Position numbers and translations under genes: made by a program
Notes under the pieces: generated by a model
What the model was told of the DNA's origin: nothing
Database searches by the model: none
Seen by the model: the letters and a program-made list of their open reading frames with translations, nothing else
Shown: positions 5,127-24,881 of the stretch, in pieces
Layout of the letters: every line of letters begins with the position of its first letter
Position numbering within the stretch: position 1 is the stretch's first letter
Source: an uncultured Flavonifractor sp.
GTDB lineage: Bacteria > Bacillota > Clostridia > Oscillospirales > Oscillospiraceae
Assembly (NCBI RefSeq): GCF_944385615.1
Contig: NZ_CALWXV010000017.1
Coordinates: 1 to 45,909, forward strand
DNA: 45,909 nt
Direction: 5' to 3'

Positions 5127-5303
5127 TGTCGAAAAAGGCGAGCGCCTTTTTCGACAAAAGACTTCATGACGGACGAAGTTCGATTTCTTACGAAATTGTC
5201 ACCCCGTCCGTCATGAGAAGTGTCCTTTTCGAGGCTCATGTCCCCGAAAAGGACTGATTCTCATTTGATTCCGCCGCCTGGAGGCGGCGGAACTCTGCGA
5301 GGC
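5127..5303 (-). repeat. Structured intergenic repeat, copy 1
   Basis: First of three copies of a 177-179 bp element. In plus-strand order it holds hairpin I (5127-5140 with 5143-5156), hairpin II (5165-5174 with 5206-5215, with a small inner hairpin), hairpin III (5222-5231 with 5245-5254), hairpin IV (5271-5278 with 5283-5290), then the constant tail AACTCTGCGAGGC. Compared with copies 2 and 3, several stem pairs change together (see findings). It lies downstream of infB on the minus strand. Hairpin I carries runs of five A and five T, so it could act as an intrinsic terminator in either direction. Confidence 0.9.
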
Positions 5304-5336
5304 AGTTCTATGGGTATGGTTCTTCAATGTTCTAAA

Positions 5337-5381
5337 TTATACCTCGATCTGTTCCATCAGGTAGGCCTCGATCACGTCGCC
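5337..5381 (-). pseudogene. Detached second copy of the infB 3' end
   Basis: On the minus strand these 45 bases encode [14 protein letters not shown] and a stop, the same 14 C-terminal residues as infB, whose own copy is at 5569-5613. The two copies differ at four bases, and all four are synonymous third-position changes. The fragment has no start codon or ribosome binding site. It is either a duplicated target site around the hairpin cassette at 5385-5517 or the remnant of a former infB end left by recombination. Confidence 0.85.
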
Positions 5382-5384
5382 TTT

Positions 5385-5517
5385 CCCCAACAATACGGTG
5401 TATTGTTGGGGTCCCCCTCATCCAAACTTGCTCGGGCGAAGTGAATTCGCCCTGCGCCAAGGTTTTGCCTGTGGCAAAACGCTTGCACGGCGCAAGCGCC
5501 GTCCCGTCTGCGACGGG
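5385..5517. repeat. Cassette of five perfect hairpins
   Basis: Five back-to-back inverted repeats occupy this interval: 5385-5396/5400-5411 (12 bp, 3-base loop), 5434-5440/5446-5452, 5462-5469/5473-5480, 5481-5486/5492-5497 (or the alternative GGCGC/GCGCC, 5489-5500), and 5503-5508/5512-5517. It lies between the two copies of the infB end, 5337-5381 and 5569-5613. No coding potential is credible. It has the look of a small non-autonomous repeat or a structured RNA. Positions 5518-5568 show nothing further that I can name. Confidence 0.8.
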
Positions 5518-5568
5518 GCCCAAAGGAGGGCGACAGAGCAAAATCTGTTCTCACTCCAGTCTGGCAGA

Positions 5569-7941
5569 TTACACTTCAATCTGCTCCATCAGGTAGGCCT
5601 CGATCACGTCGCCCTCCTTGATATCCTGGAACTTCTCGAAGGTGATGCCGCACTCGTAGCCCTGAGCGACTTCCTTCACGCTGTCCTTGAAGCGCTGGAG
5701 GGAGGCAATGGAACCGTCGTAGATGACCACATTGTCCCGCAGCAGACGCATCTGGGCGCCCCGCTGCATCTTGCCCTCGGTGACATAGCAGCCGGCCACC
5801 ATGCCCACGCCGGTGATACGGAACACGTTGCGCACCTCGGCCTGGCCCAGATCCACTTCCTTGAACTTGGGAGCCAGCATACCCTTCATGGCGGTCTCAA
5901 TCTCGTTGATGCAGTCGTAGATCACCCGGTACATCCGCATATCCACCTTATTGCGGGCGGCGGTCTCCTTGGCGTTGGAGTCGGGACGGACGTTAAAGCC
6001 CACGATGATGGCGTTGGAGGTGGTGGCCAGCATGACGTCGCTTTCGTTGATGGCGCCCACCGCGCAGTGGATGACCCGCACCCGCACCTCGTCGTTGGAG
6101 ATCTTCTCCAGGCTGGCCTTGACCGCCTCGGCAGAGCCCTGTACGTCGGCCTTGACGATGATGTTCAGATCCTTCATCTCGCCCTGCTTGATCTGGCTGA
6201 ACAGATCCTCCAGGCTCACCTTGCCCACCGGAGCGGAGGCGGCCATCTTCTGCTCGTGCTTGCGCTGCTCCACCAGCTCACGGGCCATACGCTCGTCGTC
6301 CACGGCGTGGAAGTCGTCGCCGGCGCCGGGCACCTCGCTCATGCCGATGATCTCCACAGGCACAGAGGGACCGGCCTCGGTGAGCTTCTCGCCCCGGGCG
6401 TTGGTCATGGCCCGGACACGGCCCACAGCGGTACCGGCGATGATAACGTCGCCCTGGTGGAGGGTGCCGTTCTGCACCAGCAGGGTGGCCACGGGACCGC
6501 GGCCCTTGTCCAGCCGGGCCTCAATGACAGCGCCATGGGCGGAGCGGTTGGGATTGGCCTTCAGTTCCTGCATCTCGGCGGTCAGGTTGACCATCTCCAG
6601 CAGGTTCTCAATGCCCTCACCGGTCTTGGCGGAGATGGGGCAGATGATGGTATCGCCGCCCCACTCCTCGGGTACCAGCTCATACTTGGTGAGCTGCTCC
6701 TTGATGCGCTCGGGGTTGGCCTCCGGCTTATCCATCTTGTTGATGGCCACGATAACGGGGATATTGGCGGCCTTGGCGTGGTTGATGGACTCCACCGTCT
6801 GGGGCATGATGCCGTCGTCGGCGGCCACCACCAGAATGGCCACGTCGGTAATCATGGCGCCACGGGCACGCATGGCGGTAAAGGCCTCATGGCCGGGGGT
6901 ATCCAGGAAAGTGATAGGCTTGCCGCCCACCTCCACCTGATAGGCGCCGATGTGCTGGGTAATGCCGCCGGCCTCTCCGGCGGCCACATGGGCGTTGCGG
7001 ATATAGTCCAGCAGAGAGGTCTTGCCGTGGTCGACGTGACCCATAACCACCACCACGGGAGCCCGGGGGAGCAGATCCTCCTCCTTGTCCTCGGCGGTGT
7101 CGATCAGCCGCTCCTCGATGGTGACAATGATCTCCTTCTCTACCTTGCAGCCCAGCTCCTCAGCGATGATGGCAGCGGTATCGAAGTCGATGACGTCGGA
7201 CAGGGAGGCCATGACGCCGTTCTTCATCAGGGTCTTGACCACCTCGGCGCCCGTCTTCTTCATGCGGGAGGCCAGCTCGCCCACGCCGATCTCGTCGGGG
7301 ATCTTGACGGTGAGGGGCGTCTTTTTGGCGATCTCCATCTGGAGCCGGCGCATCTTCTCCTGCTCCTCCTGGCGGCGCTTGTTGCCGCCCTGGAAGCCGC
7401 CCTTGCGCTGGTTGCGGCCCTGGAACTTCTGCTTGCCGGCCTGCATCTGCTTGGTCTTGCCGGCGGCCAGGTTCTCCAGCCGCTCGTCGTACTTCTCCAG
7501 GTTCACCTGGCCGCCCTTCCGGGTGTCCACTACCTTTTTCTCCGGTACTCGGGTGGTGGGACGGTTCTGCTGCTGGGGCTGCTGGGCCTTGGGCTGCTCC
7601 GCCTGGGGGGCGGGCTTGGCGGGCTGGGCGCTCTCCTTGGCGGGCTTGCCGCCCTTCTGGCCCTGCTGCTGGGCGGGAGCGTGCTGCTCCTCCTTGGCGG
7701 CGGGAGCCGCCTTGGGCGCGGCCTTGGGCTCCCGGTATACATCGGCGTAGATGCTCTCAATGCTCTCCACCTGATTGTGCTGGGTGAGATACTCAAAAAT
7801 CAGGGACAGCTCCTGGTCGCTCAGGGGCTGCATGTGGTTTTTCGGGGCCGTCGCGTATTTGGTCAGAATGTCGGTGATCTCTTTAGAGTTCTTGTTGAAA
7901 TCCTTGGCCACCTCATGCACACGATACTTGTTGTTCAGCAA
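5569..7941 (-). CDS. infB: Translation initiation factor IF-2
   Basis: A 790-residue IF-2, the GTPase that brings initiator tRNA to the 30S subunit and promotes subunit joining. An IF2_N domain is at the start ([15 protein letters not shown]), followed by a long Ala/Gln/Lys/Pro-rich linker to about residue 165, and a second N-domain near 205-255. The G domain shows G1 [10 protein letters not shown] (about 299), DTPGH, and NKMD (about 401). Domains II-IV follow to the C-terminus. The start is TTG, chosen because GGAGGTGG lies about 7-9 bases upstream and the N-terminus matches the family. Its last 14 codons are duplicated downstream. Confidence 0.97.
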
Positions 7942-7971
7942 ATAAAGCCACCTCCAACTGGTCGGCTTGCG

Positions 7972-8033
7972 CCAATAGGAAAACGCGGCGGGGCCGCTGC
8001 GCTTTCTTATTGGAACAAGCCTGCTCGTTCCAA
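7972..8033 (-). other. Two hairpins in the ylxQ-infB gap
   Basis: The gap of 112 bp upstream of infB contains an imperfect long stem (CCAATAGGA at 7972-7980 against TTATTGG at 8007-8013, with a GC-rich interior) and a second hairpin TTGGAAC/GTTCCAA (8010-8016 with 8027-8033) with inner AGC/GCT pairs. The two share bases and could be alternative folds. No T-tract follows. They may influence RNA processing or infB translation, as the infB ribosome binding site lies just downstream. Confidence 0.55.
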
Positions 8034-8053
8034 TCTGTCTCTGCCATGGATGC

Positions 8054-8587
8054 TCATGGCTGCTTCTTGATGGTCAGCCTGCCCTTGGGGGCAAACCGTT
8101 TCACCTGCTTCTTCGCCTTGGGCGCTGGCTGTGCCTCTTTCCGCTCTTTTGGCGGCGGGGCCCAGGGCTTCTTGTTCTTCTTTTGCAGATTCTTCTCGTG
8201 GGCCCGCTGCTCCTTCTGCCGCTGGAGAGCCTTTTCCGACTGGGCCTTCAGCTGCTGGGCGGCAGGGCCGCACCCCTCCGGGTCGGCCTGGGCCAGCTTG
8301 GCGGCAATGGCAGCAGCCAGCCCCACATCGGTAAGGGCCAGCATGGTGCAGGCCGACCGGCCCACCGCGCTCCCCAAGCCGCCCTTGGTATAGGGGGTAG
8401 TCAGGCAAGGTACCTTGCCGGTCTCCGCAAAGTGGGCTGCCCGGCGCAGGCTGTTGTCCGCCCCATCGCAGGCAGTGAGGATCAGCTTGGCCTGATGGGC
8501 CCGGGCGGCGGCGCCTACCGGCTCCTCGCCCACCTCCACCCGGCCCGCCTTGCGGGCGATACCCAACAGATGCAGTACGCTATCCAT
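8054..8587 (-). CDS. YlxQ-type L7Ae/L30e RNA-binding protein with basic tail
   Basis: A 177-residue protein whose first 95 or so residues match the L7Ae/L30e/S12e fold ([32 protein letters not shown]), the YlxQ family found between rnpM and infB in Firmicutes. YlxQ proteins are usually about 100 residues; here a Lys/Gln/Pro-rich, strongly basic tail of about 80 residues follows (for example [17 protein letters not shown]). The tail probably adds nonspecific RNA binding. The ATG start at 8587 overlaps the rnpM stop by 8 bp, so it is coupled to rnpM. Confidence 0.88.
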
Positions 8588-8855
8588 CCTGCTCCCCCTC
8601 CCGCATCTGCTGCTCCAGGGCCTCGTATACCTCGTCGGGCATGGGGGCGGAAAAGGCCCGCTCCAGCGCCCTGGCCTTCCGGGCCCGCTTCAGACAGGCC
8701 TCGTCGGGGCACACATAGGCCCCCCGGCCCGGCTTCTTCCCTTTAAAATCCAGAGAGACCTCCCCCTCCGGGCTCTTCACCACCCGGATCAGCTCCTTTT
8801 TGGGCTTCATCTCCCGGCAGCCCACGCATTGGCGCATGGGAATTTTCTTGGGCAT
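8580..8855 (-). CDS. rnpM: RNase P modulator RnpM (YlxR)
   Basis: A 91-residue YlxR-family protein. It has the family hallmarks RQCVGCREMKPKKELIR near the start and the GRGAYVC motif near residue 45, with CVGC and later cysteines. In Bacillus subtilis YlxR (RnpM) binds RNase P RNA and modulates its activity; that role is assumed here from family. The ATG at 8855 has GAGGAGG about 9 bases upstream. It sits between nusA and ylxQ, its standard place. Confidence 0.93.
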   Translation of the reverse strand: MPKKIPMRQCVGCREMKPKKELIRVVKSPEGEVSLDFKGKKPGRGAYVCPDEACLKRARKARALERAFSAPMPDEVYEALEQQMREGEQDG

Positions 8856-8873
8856 TTTTCTCGCCTCCTCGTC

Positions 8874-8976
8874 GGCACAAGCTCCATATCCCTCGCTTCG
8901 CCGTATCCGGCAAAGCTCACTCGTTCCGCTGTGCCTCCTCTCCCCGCCAAACCCGCTGCGCTGGGCTTTGGCGGGG
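8874..8976 (-). other. Two strong hairpins in the nusA-rnpM gap
   Basis: This 140-bp gap holds a large stem closed by GGCACA/TGTGCC (8874-8879 with 8930-8935) with an inner 9-bp stem (8895-8903 with 8908-8916, one G-T pair), then a perfect 10-bp stem (8942-8951 with 8967-8976). They lie directly after nusA on the transcript. No T-tract follows, so they look like RNA stability or processing elements rather than terminators. The rnpM ribosome binding site follows the last stem. Confidence 0.7.
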
Positions 8977-8995
8977 GCCCCGTCTGGGGAACAGT

Positions 8996-10159
8996 TTACT
9001 CCTCGCTCTGAGTCTCGGTTTCGTCCTCCAGGATGACGTCCTCTTCCTCCTCCGGCACCTCGTCGGCGGGGGCGGAAGCGGGCTTGATGTCGATCTTCCA
9101 GCCGGTCAGCTTGGCGGCCAGCCGGGCGTTCTGACCCTCCTTGCCGATAGCCAGGGAGAGCTGATCGTCGGGCACCACCACCCGGCAGGTCTTGCCCTCC
9201 TCATGGATCTCCACGCTGAGCACGTCGGCGGGGGACAGGGCGGCGGCGATGTACTGGGCGGGGTCCTCCGACCACTTGACGATATCCACCTTCTCGCCCC
9301 GCAGCTCCTCCACAATGTTGTTGACCCGCTGGCCACGGGGACCCACGCAGGCGCCGATGGGGTCCACGTTGGGGTCGGCGGACCAGACGGCCAGCTTGGT
9401 GCGGCTGCCCGCCTCACGGGCGATGGACTTGACCTCCACAGTGCCGTCGTAGATCTCGGGTACCTCCATCTCAAACAGCCGCTTTACCAGGCCGGGATGG
9501 GTGCGGGAAATCAGGACCTGGGGGCCCTTGGTGGAACGGCGGACCTCCACCACATACACCCGCAGGCGCATGCCCTCCACATACTCCTCCCCCTTGACCT
9601 GCTCGCCAGCGGCCAGGAAGGCCTCGGTGGCCTCGCTGCCCGAGCCGATGCGCAGGCTGGCGGAGCCGGAGCGGGGATCAATGCGGGTGATGACGCCGGT
9701 GAGGATCTCATGCTCCTTGGATGAGAACTCGTCGTACACCATACCCCGCTCGGCCTCCCGCATCCCCTGAATAATGACCTGGCGGGCGGTCTGGGCAGCG
9801 ATGCGGCCAAAGTCCCGGGTCTTGATCTCGATGCGGATCACATCCCCCAGCTGGGCCTGGGGGATCTTGCTGCGGGCCATCTCCAGGCTCATCTCGGTGC
9901 AGGGGTTATCCACCTCTTCCACCACGTCCTTCTTGACGAACATACGGACGGTACCGGCCTCCTCATCGGCCTCCATCACGATGTTGTCACCGGCAGTCTC
10001 GTGGTCCCGCTTGTAGGCGGACACCAGCGCCTGGCCGATCTTCTCCAGCATATAGGACTTGGGAATGCCCTTTTCCTTCTCAATCAAATTGATGGCAGCG
10101 AAAAATTCCTTGCCGTCCAGCTCGTTGGTCTTCTGCGCTTTGGCGTTTTTCTTCGGCAT
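8996..10159 (-). CDS. nusA: Transcription termination/antitermination factor NusA
   Basis: A 387-residue NusA, which binds RNA polymerase and nascent RNA and affects pausing, termination and antitermination. The order is N-terminal RNAP-binding domain (to about 125), S1 domain (about 130-200) and two KH domains (VDPIGACVGPRGQRVNNI and LSLAIGKEGQNARLAAKLTGWKI). The protein ends with an acidic stretch and lacks the C-terminal repeats of proteobacterial NusA, as expected in Firmicutes. The ATG at 10159 (MPKKNAKAQ) is preferred, with AAGGAG about 10 bases upstream. The gap to rimP is 48 bp. Confidence 0.96.
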   Translation of the reverse strand: MPKKNAKAQKTNELDGKEFFAAINLIEKEKGIPKSYMLEKIGQALVSAYKRDHETAGDNIVMEADEEAGTVRMFVKKDVVEEVDNPCTEMSLEMARSKIPQAQLGDVIRIEIKTRDFGRIAAQTARQVIIQGMREAERGMVYDEFSSKEHEILTGVITRIDPRSGSASLRIGSGSEATEAFLAAGEQVKGEEYVEGMRLRVYVVEVRRSTKGPQVLISRTHPGLVKRLFEMEVPEIYDGTVEVKSIAREAGSRTKLAVWSADPNVDPIGACVGPRGQRVNNIVEELRGEKVDIVKWSEDPAQYIAAALSPADVLSVEIHEEGKTCRVVVPDDQLSLAIGKEGQNARLAAKLTGWKIDIKPASAPADEVPEEEEDVILEDETETQSEE

Positions 10160-10207
10160 AATCTTCTTACTCCTTGCACTCTCATCCGGGCACAACCGCC
10201 CGATGCG

Positions 10208-10663
10208 TCAAATCCTCACATACAGCCGGGTCTGGGCCACATCCTTCTTTTCAAAGGTCTTGGGGCCCGCCCCTGTCTCAATGGTCACGTTGCCGTTTTC
10301 ATAGCCGGACAGCACCCCCACGTGGTCCTTCCGGCCATCCATGGCCCGGTAGAGGCGCACCTCCACCTCGCTGCCCATAAACTGGGCAAAGTGCTCCGGC
10401 TTCTTCAGAGGCCGGTCGGCACCGGCGGAGGACACCTCCAGCACATAGCTGCCCTCGATGGGGTCGGCCTCGTCCAGGGCGTCGGACAGTGGGCGGCTCA
10501 CCGCCTCGCAGTCGTTGATGGAGACGCCCCCCTCCTTATCAATATAGATCCGCAGGAACCACTGCCCGGCCTCCCGGACATATTCCACGTCCCACAGGGT
10601 GCAGCCGGCCTCCTCCACCAGGGGGGCGGCCAGCGCGGATACCAGCTCTGTTACCTTGGCCAT
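10208..10663 (-). CDS. rimP: Ribosome maturation factor RimP
   Basis: A 151-residue RimP, required for early 30S assembly. It shows the family features VEEAGCTLWDVEYVREAGQWFLRIYIDKEGGVSINDCE and a following LEVSSAGADRPLKKPEHF segment (the SSPGLDRPL region, here SSAGADRPL). ATG start with GGAGGT 6-7 bases upstream. It is the first gene of the nusA-infB operon and lies about 110 bp downstream of the promoter at 10772-10800. Confidence 0.95.
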   Translation of the reverse strand: MAKVTELVSALAAPLVEEAGCTLWDVEYVREAGQWFLRIYIDKEGGVSINDCEAVSRPLSDALDEADPIEGSYVLEVSSAGADRPLKKPEHFAQFMGSEVEVRLYRAMDGRKDHVGVLSGYENGNVTIETGAGPKTFEKKDVAQTRLYVRI

Positions 10664-10771
10664 ACGCTACCTCCGGCAAGGGCTGTAAACATTTTACATA
10701 CCCTGTTTTTTCAATAAGAAAGAGCGGAGCCGCAACCCCACTCTCACCATACCTCTACTACTATCGTTTGT

Positions 10772-10800
10772 ACTATACCATAAAATATCCCTTGTTGCAA
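10772..10800 (-). promoter_or_regulatory. SigA-type promoter of the rimP-nusA-infB operon
   Basis: On the minus strand TTGCAA (10800-10795), a 17-base spacer and TATAGT (10777-10772). This is the only good promoter match upstream of rimP. It leaves a leader of about 105 bases with no clear structure. Confidence 0.75.
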
Positions 10801-10870
10801 GGGGGTGGGGCGATTTTTCCCTTGGATAAAGCAGTTCCACTTCACAGGACAGGCCGGTTCTATTTTCTGA

Positions 10871-10898
10871 TTGACATAACCCTCCACTTTGCTACAAT
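10871..10898 (+). promoter_or_regulatory. SigA-type promoter of the moxR operon
   Basis: TTGACA (10871-10876), a 16-base spacer and TACAAT (10893-10898), about 75 bp upstream of the moxR start. It is divergent from the rimP promoter; the two lie about 70 bp apart. Confidence 0.8.
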
Positions 10899-10971
10899 AA
10901 TGCTAAGTAAATTCCTTTCCATCGACGATACAATCCACCGGACGGGGAAAACGCCCGGAAAGGAGGACAAT

Positions 10972-11904
10972 ATGACGGGAAACAAGGCTGCTTTGGAGAT
11001 TCTGAGCGAGGTCCAGAAAGCAGTGGTAGGCAAAAACGACGTGCTGGCCAAGGTGCTGCTGGCCATTCTGGCCCGGGGCCATATTCTGCTGGAGGATATC
11101 CCCGGCGTGGGCAAGACCACCATGGCCCTGGCCTTTTCCAAGGCTTTGGGTCTGAAATACAACCGGGTACAGTTTACCCCCGATGTGATGCCCTCAGACA
11201 TCACCGGATTTTCCATCTACAACAAGGCCACCGGCGCCATGGAGTACCAGCCCGGCGCGGTGCTGTGCAATCTGTTTCTGGCCGACGAGCTCAACCGGGC
11301 CACCAGCCGCACCCAGTCCGCCCTGCTGGAGGCCATGGAGGAGGGACAGGTCACGGTGGACGGGGTAAGCCATCCGGTGCCCCAGCCCTTCCTGGTCATC
11401 GCCACCCAAAACCCGGCGGGGGCCTCGGGCACCCAGCTGCTCCCCGACTCCCAGATGGACCGGTTCATGGTGCGGCTGTCCATCGGCTACCCCGCCCCGG
11501 CAGACGAGCTGGACATGGTGCGCCGCAAGCAGGGGGGCAATCCCCTGGACCAGGTGCGCCAGGTCATGGACCTGTCCGGTCTGGCCGACCTGCGGGACCA
11601 GGCAGACCGGGTGTATCTCTCCGACCAGGTGCTGGACTATATCATTCGGCTGATTAACGCTACCCGCAGCCACCCCATGATCGTCCAGGGAGCCAGTCCC
11701 CGTGCTTCCCTGGCCCTTACCGCCATGTCCAAGGCGGCCGCTTTGGTGCTGGGCCGGGACTATGTGAACCCTGAGGACGTGTCCATGGTTTTTTCCGACG
11801 TGGTGACCCACCGGCTGCTCCTTTCCCCCCGGGCAGAAACCAGCGGCGGCTTTGACCCGGCGGCGGAGATTCTGGGTCAGGTCCCGCCCCCCAAGATCGG
11901 GTGA
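10972..11904 (+). CDS. MoxR-family AAA+ ATPase
   Basis: A 310-residue MoxR-type ATPase, thought to act as a chaperone for complex assembly together with DUF58 proteins. Walker A is GVGKTT (45-50), Walker B ends in ADELNRA (Asp105-Glu106), and sensor motif ATQNPAG and the lid domain follow. The ATG at 10972 is preceded by AAAGGAGGA; a longer frame upstream covers the promoter and is rejected. The gene is followed by a DUF58 gene and a transglutaminase gene, a conserved trio whose exact substrate is not established. Confidence 0.92.
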   Translation: MTGNKAALEILSEVQKAVVGKNDVLAKVLLAILARGHILLEDIPGVGKTTMALAFSKALGLKYNRVQFTPDVMPSDITGFSIYNKATGAMEYQPGAVLCNLFLADELNRATSRTQSALLEAMEEGQVTVDGVSHPVPQPFLVIATQNPAGASGTQLLPDSQMDRFMVRLSIGYPAPADELDMVRRKQGGNPLDQVRQVMDLSGLADLRDQADRVYLSDQVLDYIIRLINATRSHPMIVQGASPRASLALTAMSKAAALVLGRDYVNPEDVSMVFSDVVTHRLLLSPRAETSGGFDPAAEILGQVPPPKIG

Positions 11905-11908
11905 GGCC

Positions 11909-15270: not shown

Positions 15271-15282
15271 GCCAATCAACAC

Positions 15283-15316: not shown

Positions 15317-15321
15317 GCCGT

Positions 15322-17241: not shown

Positions 17242-17278
17242 AACATTCCGCTGCCTTTACAGAAAATTGATGTCCTTC

Positions 17279-17306
17279 ATTTTATCACAAAAAGGCAAAA
17301 GTGCAA
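17279..17306 (-). promoter_or_regulatory. SigA-type promoter of the LTA-synthase gene
   Basis: On the minus strand TTGCAC (17306-17301), a 16-base spacer and TAAAAT (17284-17279), about 38 bp upstream of the gene start. The spacer and -35 hexamer lie inside the terminator hairpin of the preceding ABC operon. Confidence 0.65.
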
Positions 17307-17324
17307 CGCACTTCCGCCTTTTTT
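17289..17324 (-). terminator. Terminator of the NitT/TauT-type ABC operon
   Basis: AAAAAGGC (17289-17296) pairs with GCCTTTTT (17316-17323), with an inner AAGTGC/GCACTT stem. On the minus strand the stem is followed by a T-run, as expected for an intrinsic terminator of the ATPase gene ending at 17341. The hairpin is nearly symmetrical and could work both ways. Confidence 0.8.
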
Positions 17325-17340
17325 CAACAAACGGTAAGAT

Positions 17341-17916
17341 TCAGACCCGCACCAGCGGCGGCCCCTTCAAGGAGATCACCCGGTCGCACAGGGCCACTAC
17401 CTCCGCCTCATGGCTGGACAAAATCACCGGCACCCCCAGCTGACGGATTCGCTCCACCATCCGGGCTGCCCGAGGGGCGTCCACCCCGGTAAAGGGCTCG
17501 TCTAGCAGAAAGAGCTTGCCTCCACAGGCCAGGGCCCGGGCCAGGGCCAGCCGCCGGCCCATGCCGCCGGACAGGGCTGGGGGGAATTGCTTCTCCTCCC
17601 CCTCCAGTTCAGCCAAAGCCAGCCAGCGGGAGACCTCTCCCCGGCGGCTTTTGGGCAGCACATCGGTGATGTGCCGCTCCACCGTCCGCCAGGGCAGCAG
17701 CCGGTTTTCCTGAAAGAGCATCACCGGCGGCTGGGGGACGGTGACGGTCCCCTGCTGCACGGGCTGGAGCCCCGCCAGCACCCGCAGCAGGGTGGTCTTG
17801 CCGCATCCGGAGGGGCCGGACAGGGCGGTGATTCCCTTTTCCGGCAGTTCCAGAGAGAAGTGGTCCAGCACCACTTTTTCCCCAAAACAAACGGTAATTT
17901 CTTGGACGGATATCAC
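17341..17916 (-). CDS. ABC transporter ATPase, NitT/TauT type (short)
   Basis: A 191-residue ATPase energising import by the adjacent permease. Walker [10 protein letters not shown] (about 34-42), the Q-loop FQENRLLPW, signature [15 protein letters not shown], Walker [13 protein letters not shown] and H-loop SSHEAEV are all present. The QENRLLPW motif is typical of the nitrate/taurine/alkanesulfonate group. It is about 50 residues shorter than SsuB or TauB because it stops soon after the H-loop. The start is GTG with GGAGGGAG upstream, overlapping the permease stop as GTGA. Confidence 0.88.
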
Positions 17917-18707
17917 GGTTTACTCCCTCCCAGCCGTCGGAACAGAAGGCCCATGGCATACTCCAGTAAAAAGCTCAGCACAATAACCACCGCCGTCCAG
18001 GCAAAGAGGTCGGGGGTCTCCAAGGTGATTTTGGCCCGGTAGAGCTGGGTGCCGATGGCCAGCTTGGGCTGGCACAGCACCTCGGCGGCCACCCCCGCCT
18101 TCCAGGCCAGCCCCAGGCCGGTGGCGCAGCCGCTGGCAAAATAGGGGAGCACCGAGGGCAGGTACACCAGCCGAAGGGTCTTGCCCCGGCCAAAGCGGTA
18201 GGCCCGGGCAGCCTCCAGCAGCAGGGGGTCGGTCTGGGCCACCCCCTTGCTAACGTTGCCCCACAGCACCGGCAGCACCATGAGCCCGGACACAATGGCG
18301 GGCACCCACCCGGCAGAGGGAGCCCATAGCAGCACCAGCACAATAAAGGAGGCCACCGGGATGGCCCGGATCACCTTCACCGCCGGGGTGAGCACCCAGT
18401 CCGCCCCTTTCAAGGCAGAGGTGGCCGCCGCAGTCACCGCGCCCGCTGCCGCCCCCGCCGCAAAACCGGCAAAAATCCGGCCCAGGGTCACAACCGCCGC
18501 CTGCCAGAAGGCGGGCTGGACCGCTAGGACTTGCAGCCGCCCGGCCACCACCATGGGGGCAGGGAGCAGCAGGGCCCCGTGTCCGCTGGTGCGCAGGTCC
18601 ACCAAAAACGCCGCAAGCTGCCAAACCCCCAGCCAGAAGGCCAGGGGTATGACAGCTCGCAGGATTTTGATTCCAGTTGAATTACGGGATGTAGTAGAAG
18701 GCGTCAT
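17913..18707 (-). CDS. ABC transporter permease, NitT/TauT type
   Basis: A 264-residue membrane protein with about six helices and the BPD_transp_1 cytoplasmic loop ([21 protein letters not shown]), which contacts the ATPase. It resembles SsuC and related permeases. The ATG at 18707 (MTPSTTSRN) overlaps the end of the binding-protein gene by 26 bp; a start further upstream at 18758 would overlap more and has no better site. The order binding protein-permease-ATPase forms one operon. The substrate cannot be told from sequence. Confidence 0.85.
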
Positions 18708-19728
18708 CGGGGATGGAACCTCCGATCGAAGTGGGGTCGGCAGCAAAGAGCACCTCATAGTAGCTGGAGATGGTCTTCAAATCTTCTCCGGCGCTAAAGA
18801 TCATGTTGGCCTGGGGGATGGCGGCGGTGGCGATGGCGGCCTTGGGTACGATGCCGTACTGCTCGATGAGCTGGCCGCCCTCCTCCGGGTTGTCCTTGAT
18901 GTAGTTGATGGAGGCCTCATACTCAGTGAGGAAGGCGTTCACAGCCTCAGGGTGCTCCTGGGCAAACTCGGTACGCACCACCACGCAGCCCATGGTAAAG
19001 GTACCGGAGGCGCCGGACTGAGTCCATGCGTCGCTCAGGTCCACCGCGTCCCGCACATCGGTATTCTGCATCAGCACGGTGGTGGCGGCGGGGACGGGAA
19101 GCATGCACAGGTCGATCTCACCGGAGGCCATGAGAGAGGTGACCTCCTCGCTGGTTTTCCACTGGATGTCCACGTCGGTGTCCGGGTCCAGGCCGTTCTG
19201 GGTCAGCAGGTAGTCCAGCACATACTCGGTGTTGGTGCCCTGGTTGATGGCGTACAAGGTCTTACCGGACAGGTCGACCAGGGAATGGACGGTGTCGCCA
19301 TTCTCCAGAATGTGGAGCACACCCAGGGTATTGAGGGCCAGCAGTTGGATGTTGCCCGTCTTGTTGTACAGGTTGGCGGCCACATTGGTGGGCAGGGCGG
19401 CGATATCCAGCTCCCCGCTGTTCAGCTTGGGCACAATGTCGTTGGCCGGGTCGGAGCCCATGGTCACCGTGTAGTGGTTCACCGTCTCACCGGCGTCGTT
19501 GTCGGCCAGCAGCTTGGCAGCTCCCATGCCGGTGGGGCCGTTGAGCAGGCCCAGGTTGATATCGGTCCCCTCCAAAGTGGGGGTCTCGCTGTTCTGGGGA
19601 GTAGTCTCACTGGCCGGAGTGGTCTCGGCGGGAGGGGTACTCTCCTGGGAATCGGTATTGGAGGCGCAGGCAGTCAGGCCCAGCGCCAGGGCCAGAGTCA
19701 GGCCCAGTGCAAGCAGTTTCTTCTTCAT
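18682..19728 (-). CDS. ABC transporter substrate-binding lipoprotein, NitT/TauT type
   Basis: A 348-residue lipoprotein. The signal peptide ends in the lipobox LTAC (Cys21), followed by a Thr/Ser/Glu-rich linker to about residue 52. The mature part has the NMT1/SsuA-like pattern: a GLLNGPTGMGAAKLL start, and AALPTNVAANLYNK and GKTLYAINQGTNTEYVLDYLL segments. It captures a substrate outside the cell for the adjacent permease and ATPase. Similar proteins bind sulfonates, nitrate or pyrimidine precursors; I cannot choose. ATG start after a good promoter about 57 bp upstream. Confidence 0.87.
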   Translation of the reverse strand: MKKKLLALGLTLALALGLTACASNTDSQESTPPAETTPASETTPQNSETPTLEGTDINLGLLNGPTGMGAAKLLADNDAGETVNHYTVTMGSDPANDIVPKLNSGELDIAALPTNVAANLYNKTGNIQLLALNTLGVLHILENGDTVHSLVDLSGKTLYAINQGTNTEYVLDYLLTQNGLDPDTDVDIQWKTSEEVTSLMASGEIDLCMLPVPAATTVLMQNTDVRDAVDLSDAWTQSGASGTFTMGCVVVRTEFAQEHPEAVNAFLTEYEASINYIKDNPEEGGQLIEQYGIVPKAAIATAAIPQANMIFSAGEDLKTISSYYEVLFAADPTSIGGSIPDDAFYYIP

Positions 19729-19784
19729 GGTATCTCGTTCCTTTCTCTGCCGTCGGAGGGTCTGCCCTCTGTACGGTCCAGTTT

Positions 19785-19812
19785 AGTGTACCATGTCCCC
19801 CAGAAATGTCAA
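19785..19812 (-). promoter_or_regulatory. SigA-type promoter of the NitT/TauT ABC operon
   Basis: On the minus strand TTGACA (19812-19807), a 16-base spacer and TACACT (19790-19785). The leader to the ATG is about 50 bases and shows no riboswitch-like structure. Confidence 0.78.
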
Positions 19813-19894
19813 CGGGCAATTTCCCCAATTCTGTGCCGGAAGGACCGGCCGGGTCCCAGGCGCATAGGATGGGGAGAACAGGAGGGATTTTCCG

Positions 19895-20239
19895 ATGAAT
19901 CAACCCATCAATCAGCACGCCCGGGACCAGGCAGCCCGGCAGCGGGCCGCCGCCATCCTGGCCCAGAGCCGCCAGGGACCGATGGAGCGCCCTCAGCCGG
20001 AGGAGCCGGAAATGAAGCGGTACATACATCCCGTCCCCTGCTGGGGAAACTGCCCCGGCCCCGCTCCCGCCCCTGGTGGCGGCCCCTACATGGACCGGGT
20101 GCTGGAGGAGCTGGCCCGGCAGAATCAACTGCTGGTGGAGCTGCTGGGGGCGGTCAACGCCCTTACCGCCGCCACCCTCAGCATCCGCAGCCGCTTTGTG
20201 GGGCAAGAGTCGGGGGGAATAAAAAGTCGAATTCTGTAA
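19895..20239 (+). CDS. Hypothetical small protein, Pro/Gln-rich
   Basis: A 114-residue protein preceded by a strong AGGAGG site 8 bases before the ATG. The N-terminal third is rich in Gln, Ala and Arg, the centre contains the motif PVPCWGNCPGPAPAPGGGP with two cysteines, and the C-terminal 50 residues form a predicted leucine-rich helix (LEELARQNQLLVELLGAVNAL). No signal peptide. I do not recognise the family. The Pro/Gly/Cys core with a short helix recalls spore-coat-associated small proteins, but that is a guess. No clear promoter was found in 19813-19894. Confidence 0.65.
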   Translation: MNQPINQHARDQAARQRAAAILAQSRQGPMERPQPEEPEMKRYIHPVPCWGNCPGPAPAPGGGPYMDRVLEELARQNQLLVELLGAVNALTAATLSIRSRFVGQESGGIKSRIL

Positions 20240-20320
20240 AACCTTTTGCCCTTTTATGCCGTCTAATAAAATATGACCGCAGGAAATAGCGGATGTTACC
20301 AAAGAAAGGCGTGGTCTCCC

Positions 20321-21421
20321 ATGGCCAAACGACTGATGAAAAAGAGCAAAGCGCCCTTGTCCCCCGGCAGGCGGGTGTTGCGCATCCTGTTTGTCCTGCT
20401 GGTGATTTTGGCGGCCCTGATCGTGATCGCGTACGGAGCCTTCCGTCTGCTGGCCCAGCCCCCCAAGATCACTCAGGAGACCCCGCCTCCGGCAGAGAGT
20501 GCCGGCGTGGCCCTGGCCGACCCCTCCCCCACCCCCAGCCAGAGCGCCCAGCCTGTCCGCCAGCGGAAGGAGTACACCTACACCTTCCTGCTGTGTGCCA
20601 GCGACCAGTCCAGCGGCAATGTGGACACCATGATCGTGGCCACCTATGACACAGTGAACCAAACCATGGCCATGGTTTCCATCCCACGGGACACCCTGGT
20701 GGAAGGTGTGACCGCCAAGGGAAAACACTTTTACAAGCTATGCAGTATGTACCCCTACAACGGCATCGACGCTCTGAAAGAGGAAGTCCAGAAGATCGTG
20801 GGCTTTCCCATCGACTTCTACGTGAAGGTAAACACCAGGGGCTTTGTCCGGCTGGTAGATGCGGTGGGGGGGATCAACTTCAACGTACCTGTCCACATGT
20901 CCTATGACGACCCCAGCCAGAACCTGTATATCCATTTTGAGCCGGGGATGCAATATCTCAGCGGCACCGACGCTTTGAAGGTGGCCCGCTGCCGGAAAAA
21001 CTCTGACGGCCGGGGCCGGTACCCCAACAACATCTATGACGCCTATCCCGACGCCGACATCGGCCGCACCAAGACTCAGCGGGAGCTCATCATGGCGGTA
21101 CTGAAAAAGGCTGTCTCCCAGCCTCTGAACCTGCCCACCTACTATGATATTTTTATGGAAAATGTAGAGACCGACCTGAAGCTGTCCGACTTAGCCTTCT
21201 TCGCCGACAAGGGGCTGAGCTTTGACTTTGACAACGTGACCACCACCTCCCTGCCGGGGGACGGTGCCGTGACCTACAAGGGATGGACCTGGTGCTATGA
21301 GCTCTACCCCGACAAGGTGCTGGATATTGTGAACACCTCCGGCCTCAACCCCTACACCACCGATATTACCGCCGATATGCTGGACATCACCCAGAGCGGC
21401 ACCGCCAAACGATACGATTAA
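20321..21421 (+). CDS. LytR-CpsA-Psr (LCP) family wall polymer ligase
   Basis: A 366-residue protein with a basic N-terminus, one membrane helix (about 18-42) and an extracellular LCP domain. The hallmarks DTMIVATYDTVNQTMAMVSIPRDTLV (about 106) and a later GGINFNV and RCRKNSDGRGR segment are present; the arginines and aspartates bind the pyrophosphate of lipid-linked polymers. LCP enzymes attach teichoic acids or capsule to peptidoglycan. The ATG at 20321 is chosen because the membrane anchor follows directly; its ribosome binding site (AAAGG, about 11 bases away) is modest. Promoter not clear. Confidence 0.92.
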   Translation: MAKRLMKKSKAPLSPGRRVLRILFVLLVILAALIVIAYGAFRLLAQPPKITQETPPPAESAGVALADPSPTPSQSAQPVRQRKEYTYTFLLCASDQSSGNVDTMIVATYDTVNQTMAMVSIPRDTLVEGVTAKGKHFYKLCSMYPYNGIDALKEEVQKIVGFPIDFYVKVNTRGFVRLVDAVGGINFNVPVHMSYDDPSQNLYIHFEPGMQYLSGTDALKVARCRKNSDGRGRYPNNIYDAYPDADIGRTKTQRELIMAVLKKAVSQPLNLPTYYDIFMENVETDLKLSDLAFFADKGLSFDFDNVTTTSLPGDGAVTYKGWTWCYELYPDKVLDIVNTSGLNPYTTDITADMLDITQSGTAKRYD

Positions 21422-21458
21422 ATGAGAAAAGGACGCCGGAAGGCGTCCTTTTCTCATT
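21421..21458. terminator. Bidirectional terminator, LCP and zinc-ribbon genes
   Basis: A perfect 17-bp stem (21421-21437 with 21442-21458) with a GGAA loop, A-rich on the left and T-rich on the right, starts at the LCP stop codon. It sits between converging genes and should end both transcripts. Confidence 0.9.
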
Positions 21459-21467
21459 TTAACCGGC

Positions 21468-21659
21468 TTATACAAACTCGTAATCCGCGAATTTGTCCTC
21501 GCCCTGCTTGTTGTCCTTGGTCTCTCCCACAAAGGTGCCCATTACCTGGCAGTCCGGGCAGAAGCCGAACTCAGGCTCGGAGGCAAACTCCAGCTCATAG
21601 CGGTACTTCTTCCCGCACTGCGGGCACTCGTAAAAGAAATAGTAGGTTCCCCAGGTCAT
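21468..21659 (-). CDS. Small zinc-ribbon protein
   Basis: A 63-residue protein with two Cys-X2-Cys pairs, CPQC near residue 12 and CPDC near residue 34, which should form one zinc ribbon. The rest is acidic and aromatic, with no signal peptide. Proteins of this kind are often annotated only as zinc-ribbon domain proteins. ATG start with GAGGA about 8 bases upstream. It is separated by 25 bp from the amidase gene and may be cotranscribed. Function unknown. Confidence 0.75.
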   Translation of the reverse strand: MTWGTYYFFYECPQCGKKYRYELEFASEPEFGFCPDCQVMGTFVGETKDNKQGEDKFADYEFV

Positions 21660-21684
21660 GTTACACGTCCTCCTCAGTTTCCAA

Positions 21685-22437
21685 TTATTGTTTCAGCAGC
21701 CCCAGCCGCTCCAGCAGCAGAGCGGCCTGCTCCCTGGTCAGGGGAGCGCCGGGGGCAGTGCCGTCAAACAGCCCCGCGTCCTTGGCCTTCTTCCAGGCCT
21801 CCTTAGCCCAGTCGCTCACCGTCTGGGCGGAGCGTTCCTTCTCATAGGCGGCAAGGGCGGCGTCAAATTGCGCCTGTGTCATCTCCGGTTCACCCCCCTT
21901 CAGCAGCGCCTTTACATCGGCGCGGAGGGTGTCCATGCTTTTGCCATGCTTGGGAAACCAGTGCCCCACATCGCTGTGGTTGGTGGCCAGGCCCAGCTTA
22001 CAGCCTTCCGCATGGTCAATGATATCCTTCTCCGGGTCCAGGCCGTAGGTTTGGCACAGATAGGCGCACAGCTCCACCGCGTTGCGGTAGACCGTGTCAA
22101 AATAGGCCTGGTTTTTCACTGGATCATAACCGATCATGGTGCCGCCGGCATAGGTGTGTCCGGCGGGCTCCAGAATCTCAAAGCCGATGTGGGTGTTGTT
22201 GGCGGCGCCGCCGGCGTGCCACCCCCGCCAGTTCCAGGGCAGGGTCTCGGTGACCCCCTCCCGGTGAACGATGGCGTGGACACAGGCGTTGGCCCCCGGT
22301 TTGTCCCAGGCTTTGAGAAAGATGTTGACGTCGGGCTGGGCCACCCCGGTGGAGTGGACCATGATCCCTTTGGGCTTGATGGTGCGCCCTGCCTTGTAGC
22401 AGTCGCTGTTGGTGAGAATATGCTCTGTGATGCGCAT
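21685..22437 (-). CDS. N-acetylmuramoyl-L-alanine amidase (PGRP/amidase_2)
   Basis: A 250-residue peptidoglycan amidase. His28 in IMVHSTG, the WHAGG segment and the later DVGHWFPKHGKS motif give the zinc-dependent amidase_2 pattern. A C-terminal region of about 45 residues (WAKEAWKKAKDAGLFDG, then LTREQAALLLERLGLL) resembles an SLH-type wall-binding unit. No signal peptide, as in phage endolysins and autolysins released by lysis or sporulation. ATG at 22437 with GGGAGG 7 bases upstream; a TTG two codons earlier is less likely. No other phage genes are nearby. Confidence 0.88.
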   Translation of the reverse strand: MRITEHILTNSDCYKAGRTIKPKGIMVHSTGVAQPDVNIFLKAWDKPGANACVHAIVHREGVTETLPWNWRGWHAGGAANNTHIGFEILEPAGHTYAGGTMIGYDPVKNQAYFDTVYRNAVELCAYLCQTYGLDPEKDIIDHAEGCKLGLATNHSDVGHWFPKHGKSMDTLRADVKALLKGGEPEMTQAQFDAALAAYEKERSAQTVSDWAKEAWKKAKDAGLFDGTAPGAPLTREQAALLLERLGLLKQ

Positions 22438-22481
22438 TGGCAACCCCTCCCGGTCATCCTATGCGCATCCCCGTCCAGCGT

Positions 22482-22835
22482 TCATTCCGGCCGCTCCGCC
22501 TCCTCCGCCGCCAGCGCCGCCCGGCGGGCGTCTCTGGCCTGGATGGTCTCGGCCACGCTTCTGGGCGGGCGGGCGTTGATCTTCTCCTGCCAGGCCAGCA
22601 CCCAGTCCCGCAGCCCCTCCAGTCCCTCTTCCGTCATGGGAAAGGCGGTGGTCTCCTCCACCGTGCTGTCCTGGAGCCGCCAGGGCCCCTCCCACACCTG
22701 GGCGGTCAGGGAGGACGGGGTATCCCCCTCCCCCTTTACCGGGTCCACCCGGTAGCGCATCCGCCCGGCGCTAGCGGTCCAGAAATTATCGTTTTCAAAG
22801 TGGGACAGCACCGGTAAAAACAGGTCCTGATCCAT
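22482..22835 (-). CDS. Hypothetical protein upstream of the amidase
   Basis: A 117-residue protein with AAGGAG 9 bases before the ATG. It starts FLPVLSHFENDNFWTASAG and ends in an Ala/Glu/Arg-rich helix. It has no signal peptide or membrane helix. I do not recognise it. The gap of 44 bp to the amidase suggests one transcript. The gene is just downstream (on its strand) of the hairpin and structured repeat copy 2. Confidence 0.65.
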   Translation of the reverse strand: MDQDLFLPVLSHFENDNFWTASAGRMRYRVDPVKGEGDTPSSLTAQVWEGPWRLQDSTVEETTAFPMTEEGLEGLRDWVLAWQEKINARPPRSVAETIQARDARRAALAAEEAERPE

Positions 22836-22860
22836 GGTGTCAACTCCTTGCAGCTGAAAA

Positions 22861-22888
22861 GCGTGGTATCTTTGTTATGATACCACGC
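22861..22888 (-). terminator. Terminator-like hairpin left of repeat copy 2
   Basis: A perfect 10-bp stem GCGTGGTATC/GATACCACGC (22861-22870 with 22879-22888). On the minus strand it is followed by TTTT. It likely ends the amino acid ABC transcript coming from 23149. A decayed copy lies at 23108-23137, on the other side of the structured repeat. Confidence 0.7.
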
Positions 22889-22895
22889 TTGAGAC

Positions 22896-23074
22896 TGTCC
22901 AAAAAGACCGAAAGGTCTTTTTGGACAAAGGGCTGCATGACGGATGGGGTTCGATTTCTGACGAAATTGTCACCCCACCCGCCATGAGAAGTGTCATTTC
23001 CGAGGCGCATGTCCCCGGAAATGACGGATTTTTATCGGATTCCGCCGCCTGTGGGCGGCGGAACTCTGCGAGGC
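22896..23074 (-). repeat. Structured intergenic repeat, copy 2
   Basis: Hairpin I is 22896-22909 with 22914-22927. Hairpin II begins at 22936 and ends at 22986, with two A-C mismatches in this copy. Hairpin III is 22993-23002 with 23016-23025, hairpin IV 23042-23049 with 23054-23061, and the tail AACTCTGCGAGGC ends at 23074. It lies 74 bp downstream of the amino acid ABC ATPase gene. The 313-bp gap 22836-23148 holds only this element, the flanking hairpin and its direct repeat. Confidence 0.9.
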
Positions 23075-23107
23075 TTCCTGATAGAGGAGGTCTTTCAACA
23101 GCCCGAA

Positions 23108-23137
23108 ACGTAGCATCTTTGTTATGATACCACGCTT
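23108..23137. repeat. Direct repeat of the 22861-22890 hairpin
   Basis: These 30 bases match 22861-22890 at 27 positions, including an unbroken run of 23 bases (23115-23137 with 22868-22890). The three differences weaken the left arm of the hairpin. The two copies bracket structured repeat copy 2. Confidence 0.9.
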
Positions 23138-23148
23138 TCAGCCACTTT

Positions 23149-23934
23149 TCAATTCTCGGAATAGCGGGACAAAAACTGACGGGTCCGTTCCTCTCTGGGG
23201 CACTCGATGACCTGCCGGGCGGGCCCCTGCTCCACAATGACGCCGCCATCCATAAAGATCACCTGGTCGGCCACATCCCGGGCAAAGGCCATCTCGTGGG
23301 TGACGATAATCATGGTGGTCTTCTGCTCGGCCAGCGCGCGGATGACCTTGAGCACCTCGCCGGTGAGCTCCGGGTCCAGAGCGGAGGTAGGCTCGTCAAA
23401 GCAGAGGATATCCGGCTTCAGGGCCAGGGCCCGGGCAATGGCCACCCGCTGCTGCTGACCGCCGGAGAGCTGGCAGGGGAAATGACCGGCCCGGTCGCTG
23501 AGGCCCATTTTTTGGAGCAGCTCCTGACCCTCGGCCTGGATCTGTTCCAAAATCGTCTTTTTATTCTGCTTGAAGTCGGGCCGCTCCTGGGCCAGCAACC
23601 GGGGGGCCAGGGTCACGTTCTCCAGAGCGGTATACTGAGGAAACAGATTGAAGGACTGAAACACCAGCCCAAAGTGGAGCCGCTTTTTCCGCACCTCGGC
23701 CTCCCGCTGGGTGGCAGGGTCGGCGGCGTCAAAAAGGGTCTCCCCATTAACCAGGATACGGCCCTGGTTGGGGGTTTCCAAAAAGTTGAGGCACCGCAGC
23801 AGGGTGGTCTTGCCCGAACCGGAAGAGCCGATGATGGCCAGAGCCTGTCCCTGCTCCAGGGAAAAGCTGATGTCCTCCAGCACCCGGGTGGCGCCGAAAT
23901 GTTTTTCAATGTTCTGTACGTCCAAAATCGCCAT
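23149..23934 (-). CDS. Polar amino acid ABC transporter ATPase
   Basis: A 261-residue GlnQ/HisP-type ATPase. Walker A GSSGSGKTT (about 36-44), Q-loop VFQSFNLFPQYT, signature LSGGQQQRVAIARAL, Walker B ILCFDEPTSALD and H-loop VTHEM are all present. It powers import of a polar amino acid with the adjacent permease (14 bp upstream). A stretch before the signature (RPDFKQNKKTILEQIQAEG) is a few residues longer than in most GlnQ proteins. ATG start with AAGAAGGTG upstream. The amino acid is not determinable from sequence. Confidence 0.93.
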   Translation of the reverse strand: MAILDVQNIEKHFGATRVLEDISFSLEQGQALAIIGSSGSGKTTLLRCLNFLETPNQGRILVNGETLFDAADPATQREAEVRKKRLHFGLVFQSFNLFPQYTALENVTLAPRLLAQERPDFKQNKKTILEQIQAEGQELLQKMGLSDRAGHFPCQLSGGQQQRVAIARALALKPDILCFDEPTSALDPELTGEVLKVIRALAEQKTTMIIVTHEMAFARDVADQVIFMDGGVIVEQGPARQVIECPREERTRQFLSRYSEN

Positions 23935-23948
23935 TTCAGCACCTTCTT

Positions 23949-24620
23949 TCAGCGGAAATAGGCCAGCTTCTTCTCCACCCAGCCAAAGAGCAGGGTGAGG
24001 GCCCCGTTAAAAACCAGATAGTACACACCGGTGAAGAACAGGGGCCACAGCAGGCCGGAATAGCCGTGGGAGCCCTTCAGGAAGGCGTAGCCCGCCCAGA
24101 TGATCTCCTGCATGGAGATGATGCGGGCAATAGAGGTGTCCTTCACCAGGGTGATGATCTCATTGGACATGGGGGGCACAATGCGCTTGACCATTTGCAG
24201 CAGGGTGACGTGGAAAAAGATCTGGCTTTTGGTCATGCCCAATACCTGGCCTGCCTCCTGCTGGCCCACCGGCACGCCCTGAATGCCGCCTCGGTAGATC
24301 TCGGAGAAGTAGCAGGCGTAGTTGATGATGAAGGCCACGGCGGAGGCCAGAAACCGCCCTCCCTCGCCGCTGGGCCATGGACTGCCGCCGGGGAGCACAT
24401 AGCCGGGTATGTAGAAGATGATGATGAGCTGGAGCATCAGCGGCGTGCCCCGGATGATCCACACCACGGTTTTGGTCAGCCAGCGCAGGGGCAAAAAGGA
24501 ACTCATGGAGCCGAAGGAGACCACCAGCCCCAGGGGGATGGCGCCGATCAGCGTGACCGCGAACAGCTTCAGCGTCTGGAGAAAGCCCTCGTTCAGGGCC
24601 CCGATGACCGTGAGAAACAT
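23949..24620 (-). CDS. Polar amino acid ABC transporter permease
   Basis: A 223-residue permease of the HisM/GlnP family with about five helices. The EAA loop (GQQEAGQVLGMTKSQIFFHVTL) and the PPMSNEIITLVKDTSI segment are typical. It forms the channel with the ATPase gene that follows 14 bp later. ATG start with AGGTAGG about 8 bases upstream. Between it and the binding-protein gene lies a 341-bp gap that holds structured repeat copy 3. Confidence 0.92.
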   Translation of the reverse strand: MFLTVIGALNEGFLQTLKLFAVTLIGAIPLGLVVSFGSMSSFLPLRWLTKTVVWIIRGTPLMLQLIIIFYIPGYVLPGGSPWPSGEGGRFLASAVAFIINYACYFSEIYRGGIQGVPVGQQEAGQVLGMTKSQIFFHVTLLQMVKRIVPPMSNEIITLVKDTSIARIISMQEIIWAGYAFLKGSHGYSGLLWPLFFTGVYYLVFNGALTLLFGWVEKKLAYFR

Positions 24621-24672
24621 AGGCGGAACCTACCTTTAGTCAAAGTGTTTCAAGGGCGTAAACCGGCCAAAA

Positions 24673-24696
24673 GCAGAGAACGCAACTGTTCTCTGC
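24673..24696 (-). terminator. Hairpin left of repeat copy 3
   Basis: A perfect 9-bp stem GCAGAGAAC/GTTCTCTGC (24673-24681 with 24688-24696). On the minus strand it is followed by TTTT, so it is terminator-like although it lies inside the ABC operon. It occupies the same place relative to the repeat as the hairpin next to copy 2. Confidence 0.6.
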
Positions 24697-24702
24697 TGAG
24701 GC

Positions 24703-24881
24703 TGTCTAAAAAGACCTGTAGGTCTTTTTAGACAAAGGGTTGCATGACGGATGGGGTTCGATTTCTTGCGAAATTGTCACCTCATCCGTCATGAGAAGTG
24801 TCCTTTCCGAGGCACATGTCCCCGGAAAGGACGGATTTTGATTTGATTCCGCCGCCTGCGGGCGGCGGAACTCTGCGAGGC
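24703..24881 (-). repeat. Structured intergenic repeat, copy 3
   Basis: Hairpin I is 24703-24716 with 24721-24734. Hairpin II runs 24743-24793 and is the best paired of the three copies (14 pairs, one G-T). Hairpin III is 24800-24809 with 24823-24832, hairpin IV 24849-24856 with 24861-24868, and the constant tail ends at 24881. It lies between the binding-protein gene and the permease gene of one ABC operon, so transcription must read through it unless the permease has its own promoter; none was seen in the 82 bp after it. Confidence 0.9.

Follow-up and report, generated by a model that had tools for sequence, protein, structure and literature searches.

The window analysed in this study is a stretch of 45,909 nucleotides (nt) from an uncultured Flavonifractor sp. 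of the Oscillospiraceae (assembly GCF_944385615.1, contig NZ_CALWXV010000017.1, positions 1 to 45,909), in which an intergenic repeat occurs three times. This repeat is a miniature inverted-repeat transposable element (MITE) that combines the ends and the target of IS1182-family insertion sequences (ISs) with a strand-specific structured body. Both the MITE and its partner ISs insert at the palindromes of intrinsic terminators and duplicate the whole palindrome. In this study, we propose as a joint explanation, to which we assign a probability of roughly 85%, that the MITE of ~215 bp is moved in trans by an IS1182-family DDE transposase and that its structured body is probably an RNA made from the complement of the strand displayed here. 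MITEs as a kind are already known; the new parts are the duplication of a whole palindrome and the conserved body.

Results

Insertion and duplication at terminator palindromes

An earlier note on this DNA, made from the letters alone, had described copies at 5127-5303, 22896-23074 and 24703-24881 and had left their nature between an RNA motif of 3' untranslated regions (UTRs) and a non-autonomous mobile repeat. The three copies sit at these positions and align as described, and their mobility is borne out by empty sites in relatives together with target duplications. Copy 2, complete at 22891..23105 on the forward strand, is flanked by one terminator palindrome in two copies, a whole left one at 22859..22890 and a right one at 23106..23137 that shows three one-sided stem changes. 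All 12 of the 12 same-genus loci that hold both flanks lack the MITE, and each of them has a single palindrome in place of the two in the window. Copy 3, complete at ~24698..24912 on the forward strand, is absent in the nine relatives listed; the closest of these, L194 and L197, have one palindrome at the empty site, corresponding to the intact left target copy at 24670..24697. A possible decayed right target copy at 24913..24946 was assigned from its position only, in a comparison by eye with the empty sites. Copy 1 extends on the forward strand over 5123..5333, with a left end at 5123 and a degenerate right end that lies by eye at ~5317-5333. It is absent in the 17 relatives listed, one of which has a run of N; L293, L294 and L296 carry short spacers without the MITE at this site, and several relatives have other insertions there. 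The terminator-like inverted repeat that adjoins copy 1 (5071..5113) is also found in relatives without the MITE.

The length of 179 bp given originally holds for the four hairpins and the tail, but the repeat continues for ~30 nt past the tail in copies 2 and 3, where the right end is an inverted match of the left end.

Beyond the window, duplications were scored among 124 rows that comprise the tail plus hairpin IV; these include at least two chance matches (one in L003, one in L019) and in places several rows per genome, which are not independent. Both ends were scorable in 40 of them, and 26 of these 40 loci exceed the 99th percentile of a null of 120 swapped-flank pairs, with a median flank-match score of 20.5 over all 40 (null mean 7.0). 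In 21 of the 26 loci the duplication begins and ends no more than 3 nt from the edges of the palindrome, and in the copy of Sporobacter termitidis (L130) a compensated pair differs between the two target copies. With all cases taken together, duplication length is weakly correlated with palindrome length (n = 26; Pearson 0.24, p 0.23; Spearman 0.40, p 0.04), which we think reflects decayed copies that shorten the match and a cut up to 9 nt inside an A/T-extended palindrome.

A probable IS1182-family partner with the same ends and target

The inverted ends of the MITE and of IS1182-family elements match over ~14 bp (AGnCTGTCGAAAAA..TTTTTCGACAGnCT, mismatches allowed). The window itself opens in such an element: positions 1..71 on the forward strand are the right end of an autonomous IS1182-family IS inside which the contig breaks (alignment score 65 over 71 bases against the IS right end of L228), with an exact TTTCTCGACAGGCTG at 57-71. 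It is followed at 72..99 by the terminator palindrome AAGCCTGTATCCCGTGGGATACAGGCTT, one copy of the IS target duplication; the same 28 nt directly abut an IS left end where contig C11 starts, which pairs the IS end of the window with that contig.

The transposase is well recognizable in L230 (genome G150), an element with MITE-like ends whose 465-residue protein matches NCBIfam NF033551, the IS1182 transposase (E 1.9e-110, 370 bits, cut-off 270), and contains the Pfam domains DDE_Tnp_1_6, DUF772 and DDE_Tnp_1. It is the partner ISs that score above the NF033551 cut-off (in L230, G066, G117, G011 and G071), the MITE itself, at ~215 bp in copies 2 and 3, being too short to encode a transposase. 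Ends of the MITE type are present in 6 of the 12 IS loci examined, and a whole-palindrome duplication in four of these six (L228, L230, L279 and L280); L228 was called an IS from a left-end match (89%) and its ends, with no long reading frame listed on the transposase strand.

In the host genome (2.69 Mb in 87 contigs, 89.55% complete) the IS left-end motif recurs ~60-75 bp from many contig ends, as expected where an assembler collapses a high-copy element. In total, 19 left and 16 right IS ends are located at contig ends, and IS interiors were not seen in the assembly. A palindrome precedes 18 of the 19 left ends at a distance of 0-1 nt. Fourteen left/right pairs of contig ends have a palindrome in common, at scores of 24-41 (best other pair 21); in 13 of these pairs the two palindromes are identical and directly abut the IS. 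The duplications of these 14 inferred IS copies measure 24-47 bp (longest duplication with at most two mismatches) and are centred on the palindrome axis in 12 cases; their correlation with palindrome length, again weak, is 0.61 by Pearson (p 0.02) and 0.40 by Spearman (p 0.16). For MITE and IS alike, the agreement of edges and the symmetry about the axis are better evidence than the correlation of lengths.

A structured body and the strand under constraint

All three window copies have four hairpins and an identical AACTCTGCGAGGC tail. On the forward strand, hairpins I to IV are located at 5127..5156, 5165..5215, 5222..5254 (13 bp, 7-nt loop) and 5269..5292 in copy 1, at 22896..22927, 22936..22986, 22993..23025 and 23040..23063 in copy 2, and at 24703..24734, 24743..24793, 24800..24832 and 24847..24870 in copy 3. 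The base swaps within stems to which the earlier note drew attention are all real; e.g., one pair of hairpin I is G-C, C-G and T-A in TGTCG..CGACA, TGTCC..GGACA and TGTCT..AGACA, respectively. A covariance model of the tail, hairpin IV and hairpin III, hereafter R1, finds this conserved core on the reverse, structured strand of each copy, at 5210..5304 (76.6 bits, E 3.9e-13), 22981..23075 (79.1 bits, E 1.3e-13) and 24788..24882 (85.4 bits, E 7.8e-15).

Hairpin III has a conserved geometry. A hairpin occupies its position in 99 of the 124 rows, 83 of them with a 7-nt loop, 79 with 12-14 bp plus a 7-nt loop and 66 with exactly 13 bp plus a 7-nt loop, although at least five of the 99 (L018, L021, L050, L071 and L131) look like another hairpin of short copies. 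In the 43 selected sequences of alignment A2, 99.1% of the cells are paired and 12 of 13 pairs have changed on both sides; none of 500 shuffles is as high and slid versions reach 40-55%. These 43 were taken from 53 de-duplicated sequences (from 93), and the omission by eye of the other ten, for odd loops or poor fit, favours structure. Alignment A3, drawn from 100 of 286 loci and fitted to the model, restores several of the ten; over 99 distinct model-aligned rows hairpin III is 97.2% paired, with 19 of 21 pairs changed on both sides. The covariation exceeds what relatedness provides: on a FastTree tree, 67 double changes fall on the same branch, compared to a mean of 12.9 (maximum 37) under random pairing, and a standard pair is kept in 60 of these 67.

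The mismatches differ between the strands. On the displayed strand, A-C and G-T mismatches number 77:8 in hairpin III, 77:33 in hairpin II and 32:15 in hairpin I, and this excess of A-C points to the complement, where A-C reads as G-U. The third pair of hairpin III, counted from the loop, is G-U on the complement in 31 of 43 sequences and A-U in 11. The complement also folds to the lower energy in 78 of 94 elements (p ~1e-9), compared to 91 of 166 flanking windows (p 0.20). Hairpin II occurs in two forms on one common layout, and in several but not all copies the loops of its type A look GNRA-like when read on the complement (by eye). The body is under strand-specific structural constraint. 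To judge from the kinds of mismatch and from the folding energies, the constraint most likely acts on the complement of the displayed strand, with 5' GCCUCGCAGAG first, and the constrained molecule would be an RNA transcribed from it. Pairing within perfect palindromes is by itself weak evidence for selection on structure; the selection suggested earlier from the three copies is supported here by the geometry of hairpin III (79 of 99 rows), the strand-specific wobble and the folding asymmetry.

The body corresponds to no named RNA family, as had been suspected: a scan of the window at Rfam gathering thresholds gave no match, and in a scan of four loci at E<=1 all matches were far below the gathering score, including mir-1540 (E 0.88) within the element of L022. 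The parallel suspicion that it is no named transposon has to be revised, as its ends and target tie the MITE to the IS1182 family.

Distribution and variants

Of the 39 matches that the host genome yields with copy 3 as query, 16 are near-full copies and 23 are partial places, the latter including some reverse-strand matches of single hairpins. Tails with at most one mismatch occur 30 times, compared to none for the reversed pattern. Given the near-full copies and this count of tails, the repeat family is far beyond chance. Across the bacterial family, R1 matches 79 of 150 genomes and 63 of 106 genera, and in genomes drawn from the class it matches 4 of 391, three of which belong to the same family and one of which is a weak match outside it. 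This weak match (L309, 1501-1582, 43.8 bits) lies upstream of a groEL-like start (gene name by eye) and retains the shapes of hairpins III and IV with a diverged tail. The cultured species Sporobacter termitidis (L130) and Papillibacter cinnamivorans (L169) both carry R1 matches. Copy 3 has no match in phage or in plasmid records. The invariance of the tail is partly a matter of ascertainment, because loci L001-L186 were mostly retrieved by the element or its tail.

The body is variable in composition. Minimal MITEs in L018, L021 and L131 have hairpins I and IV plus the tail only. L058, L068 and L069 show hairpin IV and the tail alone directly before start codons, where GCGAGGC could act as a ribosome-binding site; by eye, the gene downstream resembles dnaX in L068 and hemW in L058. 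In L056, L081, L126 and L127 the loop of hairpin III holds, by eye, extra tens of nt between intact arms.

Gene context and neighbouring repeats

Based on heuristic gene calls, the 3' end of at least one gene faces the element in 92 of 96 contexts, a position that follows from the choice of terminators as target. A promoter scan near copies 2 and 3 gave three promoter-like sites with 0.8 expected, none within the copy bodies.

Next to copy 1, window positions 5426-5535 form a second, unrelated repeat that matches many places in same-genus genomes. The end of the downstream gene stands on either side of it, at ~5336-5380 and again at ~5569-5615 (by eye). In L288, L290, L291, L292 and L304, a third structured repeat (CCGCAGCGTTAAGAA...GCAAGAAGCAGA) adjoins duplicated gene-end sequence, in the region matching window 5120-5570. 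A sequence resembling this third repeat is also found inside hairpin III of the MITE of L057.

Discussion

The closest parallel to this system is IS1272 or TnSha1, an IS1182-family element of staphylococci. According to the parts consulted of two papers (PMC4923244; PMC5678879), it recognises its hairpin targets, several of which are terminators, by structure and not by sequence; the hairpin is reportedly removed in part or entirely, and no duplication is left. As far as these parts go, IS1272 and the element described here are alike in the IS1182-family transposase, here that of the partner IS, and in the targeting of hairpins and terminators; they differ in that IS1272 removes hairpin sequence, whereas here the whole palindrome is duplicated. 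The 2017 paper on IS1272 drew, as a possibility, a pathway b in which attack occurs at the 5' feet (PMC5678879, same parts), and the whole-palindrome duplication looks like the outcome of that pathway. A separate case in the host may be an IS1272-like partial loss instead of a duplication: at the start of contig C71 the IS left end follows half of a palindrome, and the possible right partner, the end of C21, has all of it.

In the model that we propose, an IS1182-family DDE transposase would act in trans on the ends of the MITE and would attack the 5' feet of a cruciform, so that the palindrome is copied as a whole. After insertion, the proximal hairpin would lose its U-tract and the distal copy would keep it; transcription should therefore enter the element and still terminate after it. 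The predicted RNA would present, from its 5' end, GCCUCGCAGAG, hairpin IV, a linker, hairpin III, ACUUCUCA, hairpin II and hairpin I; in hairpin III, a stem of mostly 13 bp with a recurrent G-U pair closes a loop of 7 nt. More tentatively, and at somewhat under even odds, the body may be a new structured RNA family of the complement strand that has spread into gene terminators by IS1182-type transposition. Recognition by a host or element factor would involve the GCCUCGCAGAG leader and the hairpin of 13 bp and a 7-nt loop, including its G-U pair. With two terminators after insertion, of which the distal one retains the U-tract, the element would become a transcribed 3' extension of a host gene with termination kept.

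Several observations weigh against the joint explanation. Fourteen of the 40 scorable MITEs have no duplication above the threshold, among them copy 3 of the window (L001; score 7), whose left palindrome is intact and any right one decayed; copy 1, absent from the 40 scored loci, shows no duplication by eye. L278 and L281 carry IS ends and no duplication. The palindrome itself served to pair the host contig ends, and no partner emerged for 5 of the 19 left and 2 of the 16 right ends. Among the 150 family genomes, NF033551 is not associated with the MITE (32 of 55 genomes with the IS, 47 of 95 without; Fisher p 0.31), a blunt comparison as ISs collapse in assemblies, as in the host. The host assembly showed no intact transposase, its best match being weak (25.1 bits). 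R1 has no match in the six IS loci tested, so that simple deletion from these ISs does not account for the MITE body. Hairpin IV is without the strand bias of the other hairpins (A-C:G-T 8:13). Finally, a cis-acting 3' UTR role would predict that the structured strand is the sense strand, and by heuristic gene calls this is so in the minority of tandem contexts (19 sense, 39 antisense, of 58; p 0.012).

The structure of the body might be a by-product, if the arms of palindromes are corrected against each other by template switching without any selection on a transcript. Such arm-to-arm correction of perfect palindromes mimics compensation. It would agree with the few G-T intermediates on the displayed strand (10 G-T, 83 A-C and 20 other mismatches in 1313 pair cells) and with L065, where between duplicated terminators a loop is the reverse complement of its duplicate. 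However, 24 ungapped duplicated terminators (two gapped duplications were dropped) show 10 one-sided and a single two-sided stem change, and hairpin III, over a longer time scale than the terminators, shows 47 one-sided next to its 67 two-sided changes. Correction would moreover erase the G-U wobble kept at one position (31 of 43), and an asymmetry of the strands in mismatches and energy is not expected from it. As the time scales differ between terminators and hairpin III, we say no more than that arm correction alone does not look dominant, and we consider it an unlikely source of the body's structure.

A constrained strand could also be single-stranded DNA that is folded during transposition and recognised by the transposase. 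This would suit a structure that travels with the transposon, and G-T wobbles are tolerated in DNA too. Yet, IS elements with the same ends do without this body, the minimal MITEs make do with hairpins I and IV, and DDE transposition needs no single-stranded interior, for which reasons a DNA role appears quite unlikely to us. It is very unlikely, in turn, that another transposase family moves the MITE and shares its target by coincidence. The lack of association between NF033551 and the MITE and the missing intact transposase in the host assembly would fit such a mover, but the ends match over ~14 bp and MITE and IS have the unusual duplication of a whole palindrome in common, also within one genome.

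A 3' UTR motif, as in the earlier note, may apply to the copies: they do lie at gene 3' ends, for which the choice of terminators as target accounts, and the structured strand is in sense orientation in a minority of tandem contexts. A cis-acting 3' UTR or terminator-type RNA motif placed by function, without mobility, would account for the facing 3' ends in 92 of 96 contexts and for the strong covariation. It is at odds with the empty sites and whole-palindrome duplications, with the transposon ends in common with IS1182 and with the lack of a sense preference, and is highly improbable; as sole explanation it is refuted by the 12 of 12 relatives with a one-hairpin empty site. IS200/IS605-derived or REP elements are not known to make a target duplication, and group IIC introns, which have intron domains, insert after terminators and are not known to make one either; both are rejected by the whole-palindrome duplications, intron domains having been sought only through the Rfam scan of the window.

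We thus return to a MITE of IS1182 type with a structured body. Short, non-coding, modular and partly structured intergenic repeats are also represented by BOX and RUP of the pneumococcus; the likeness lies in the description, and in its ends and its terminator-palindrome target the present MITE belongs with IS1182. In the literature, among the matches listed (titles and abstract openings, with subscription papers and ISfinder notes outside the scope), none shows this MITE and none demonstrates the duplication of a whole palindrome by an IS1182 element. The consulted part of a survey of structured RNA candidates in human microbiomes (PMC8040213, supplements outside the scope) has no word beginning with 'transpos'.

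In summary, the 14 IS copies of the host offer numerous natural examples in which target structure determines the duplication that a transposase makes, and the cruciform model of IS1182 transposition becomes directly testable. A mobile repeat of just over half of the 150 sampled genomes of the family carries a strand-specific, covarying body that is unknown to Rfam. The case also cautions that an intergenic RNA motif detected through covariation may in fact be a transposon body.

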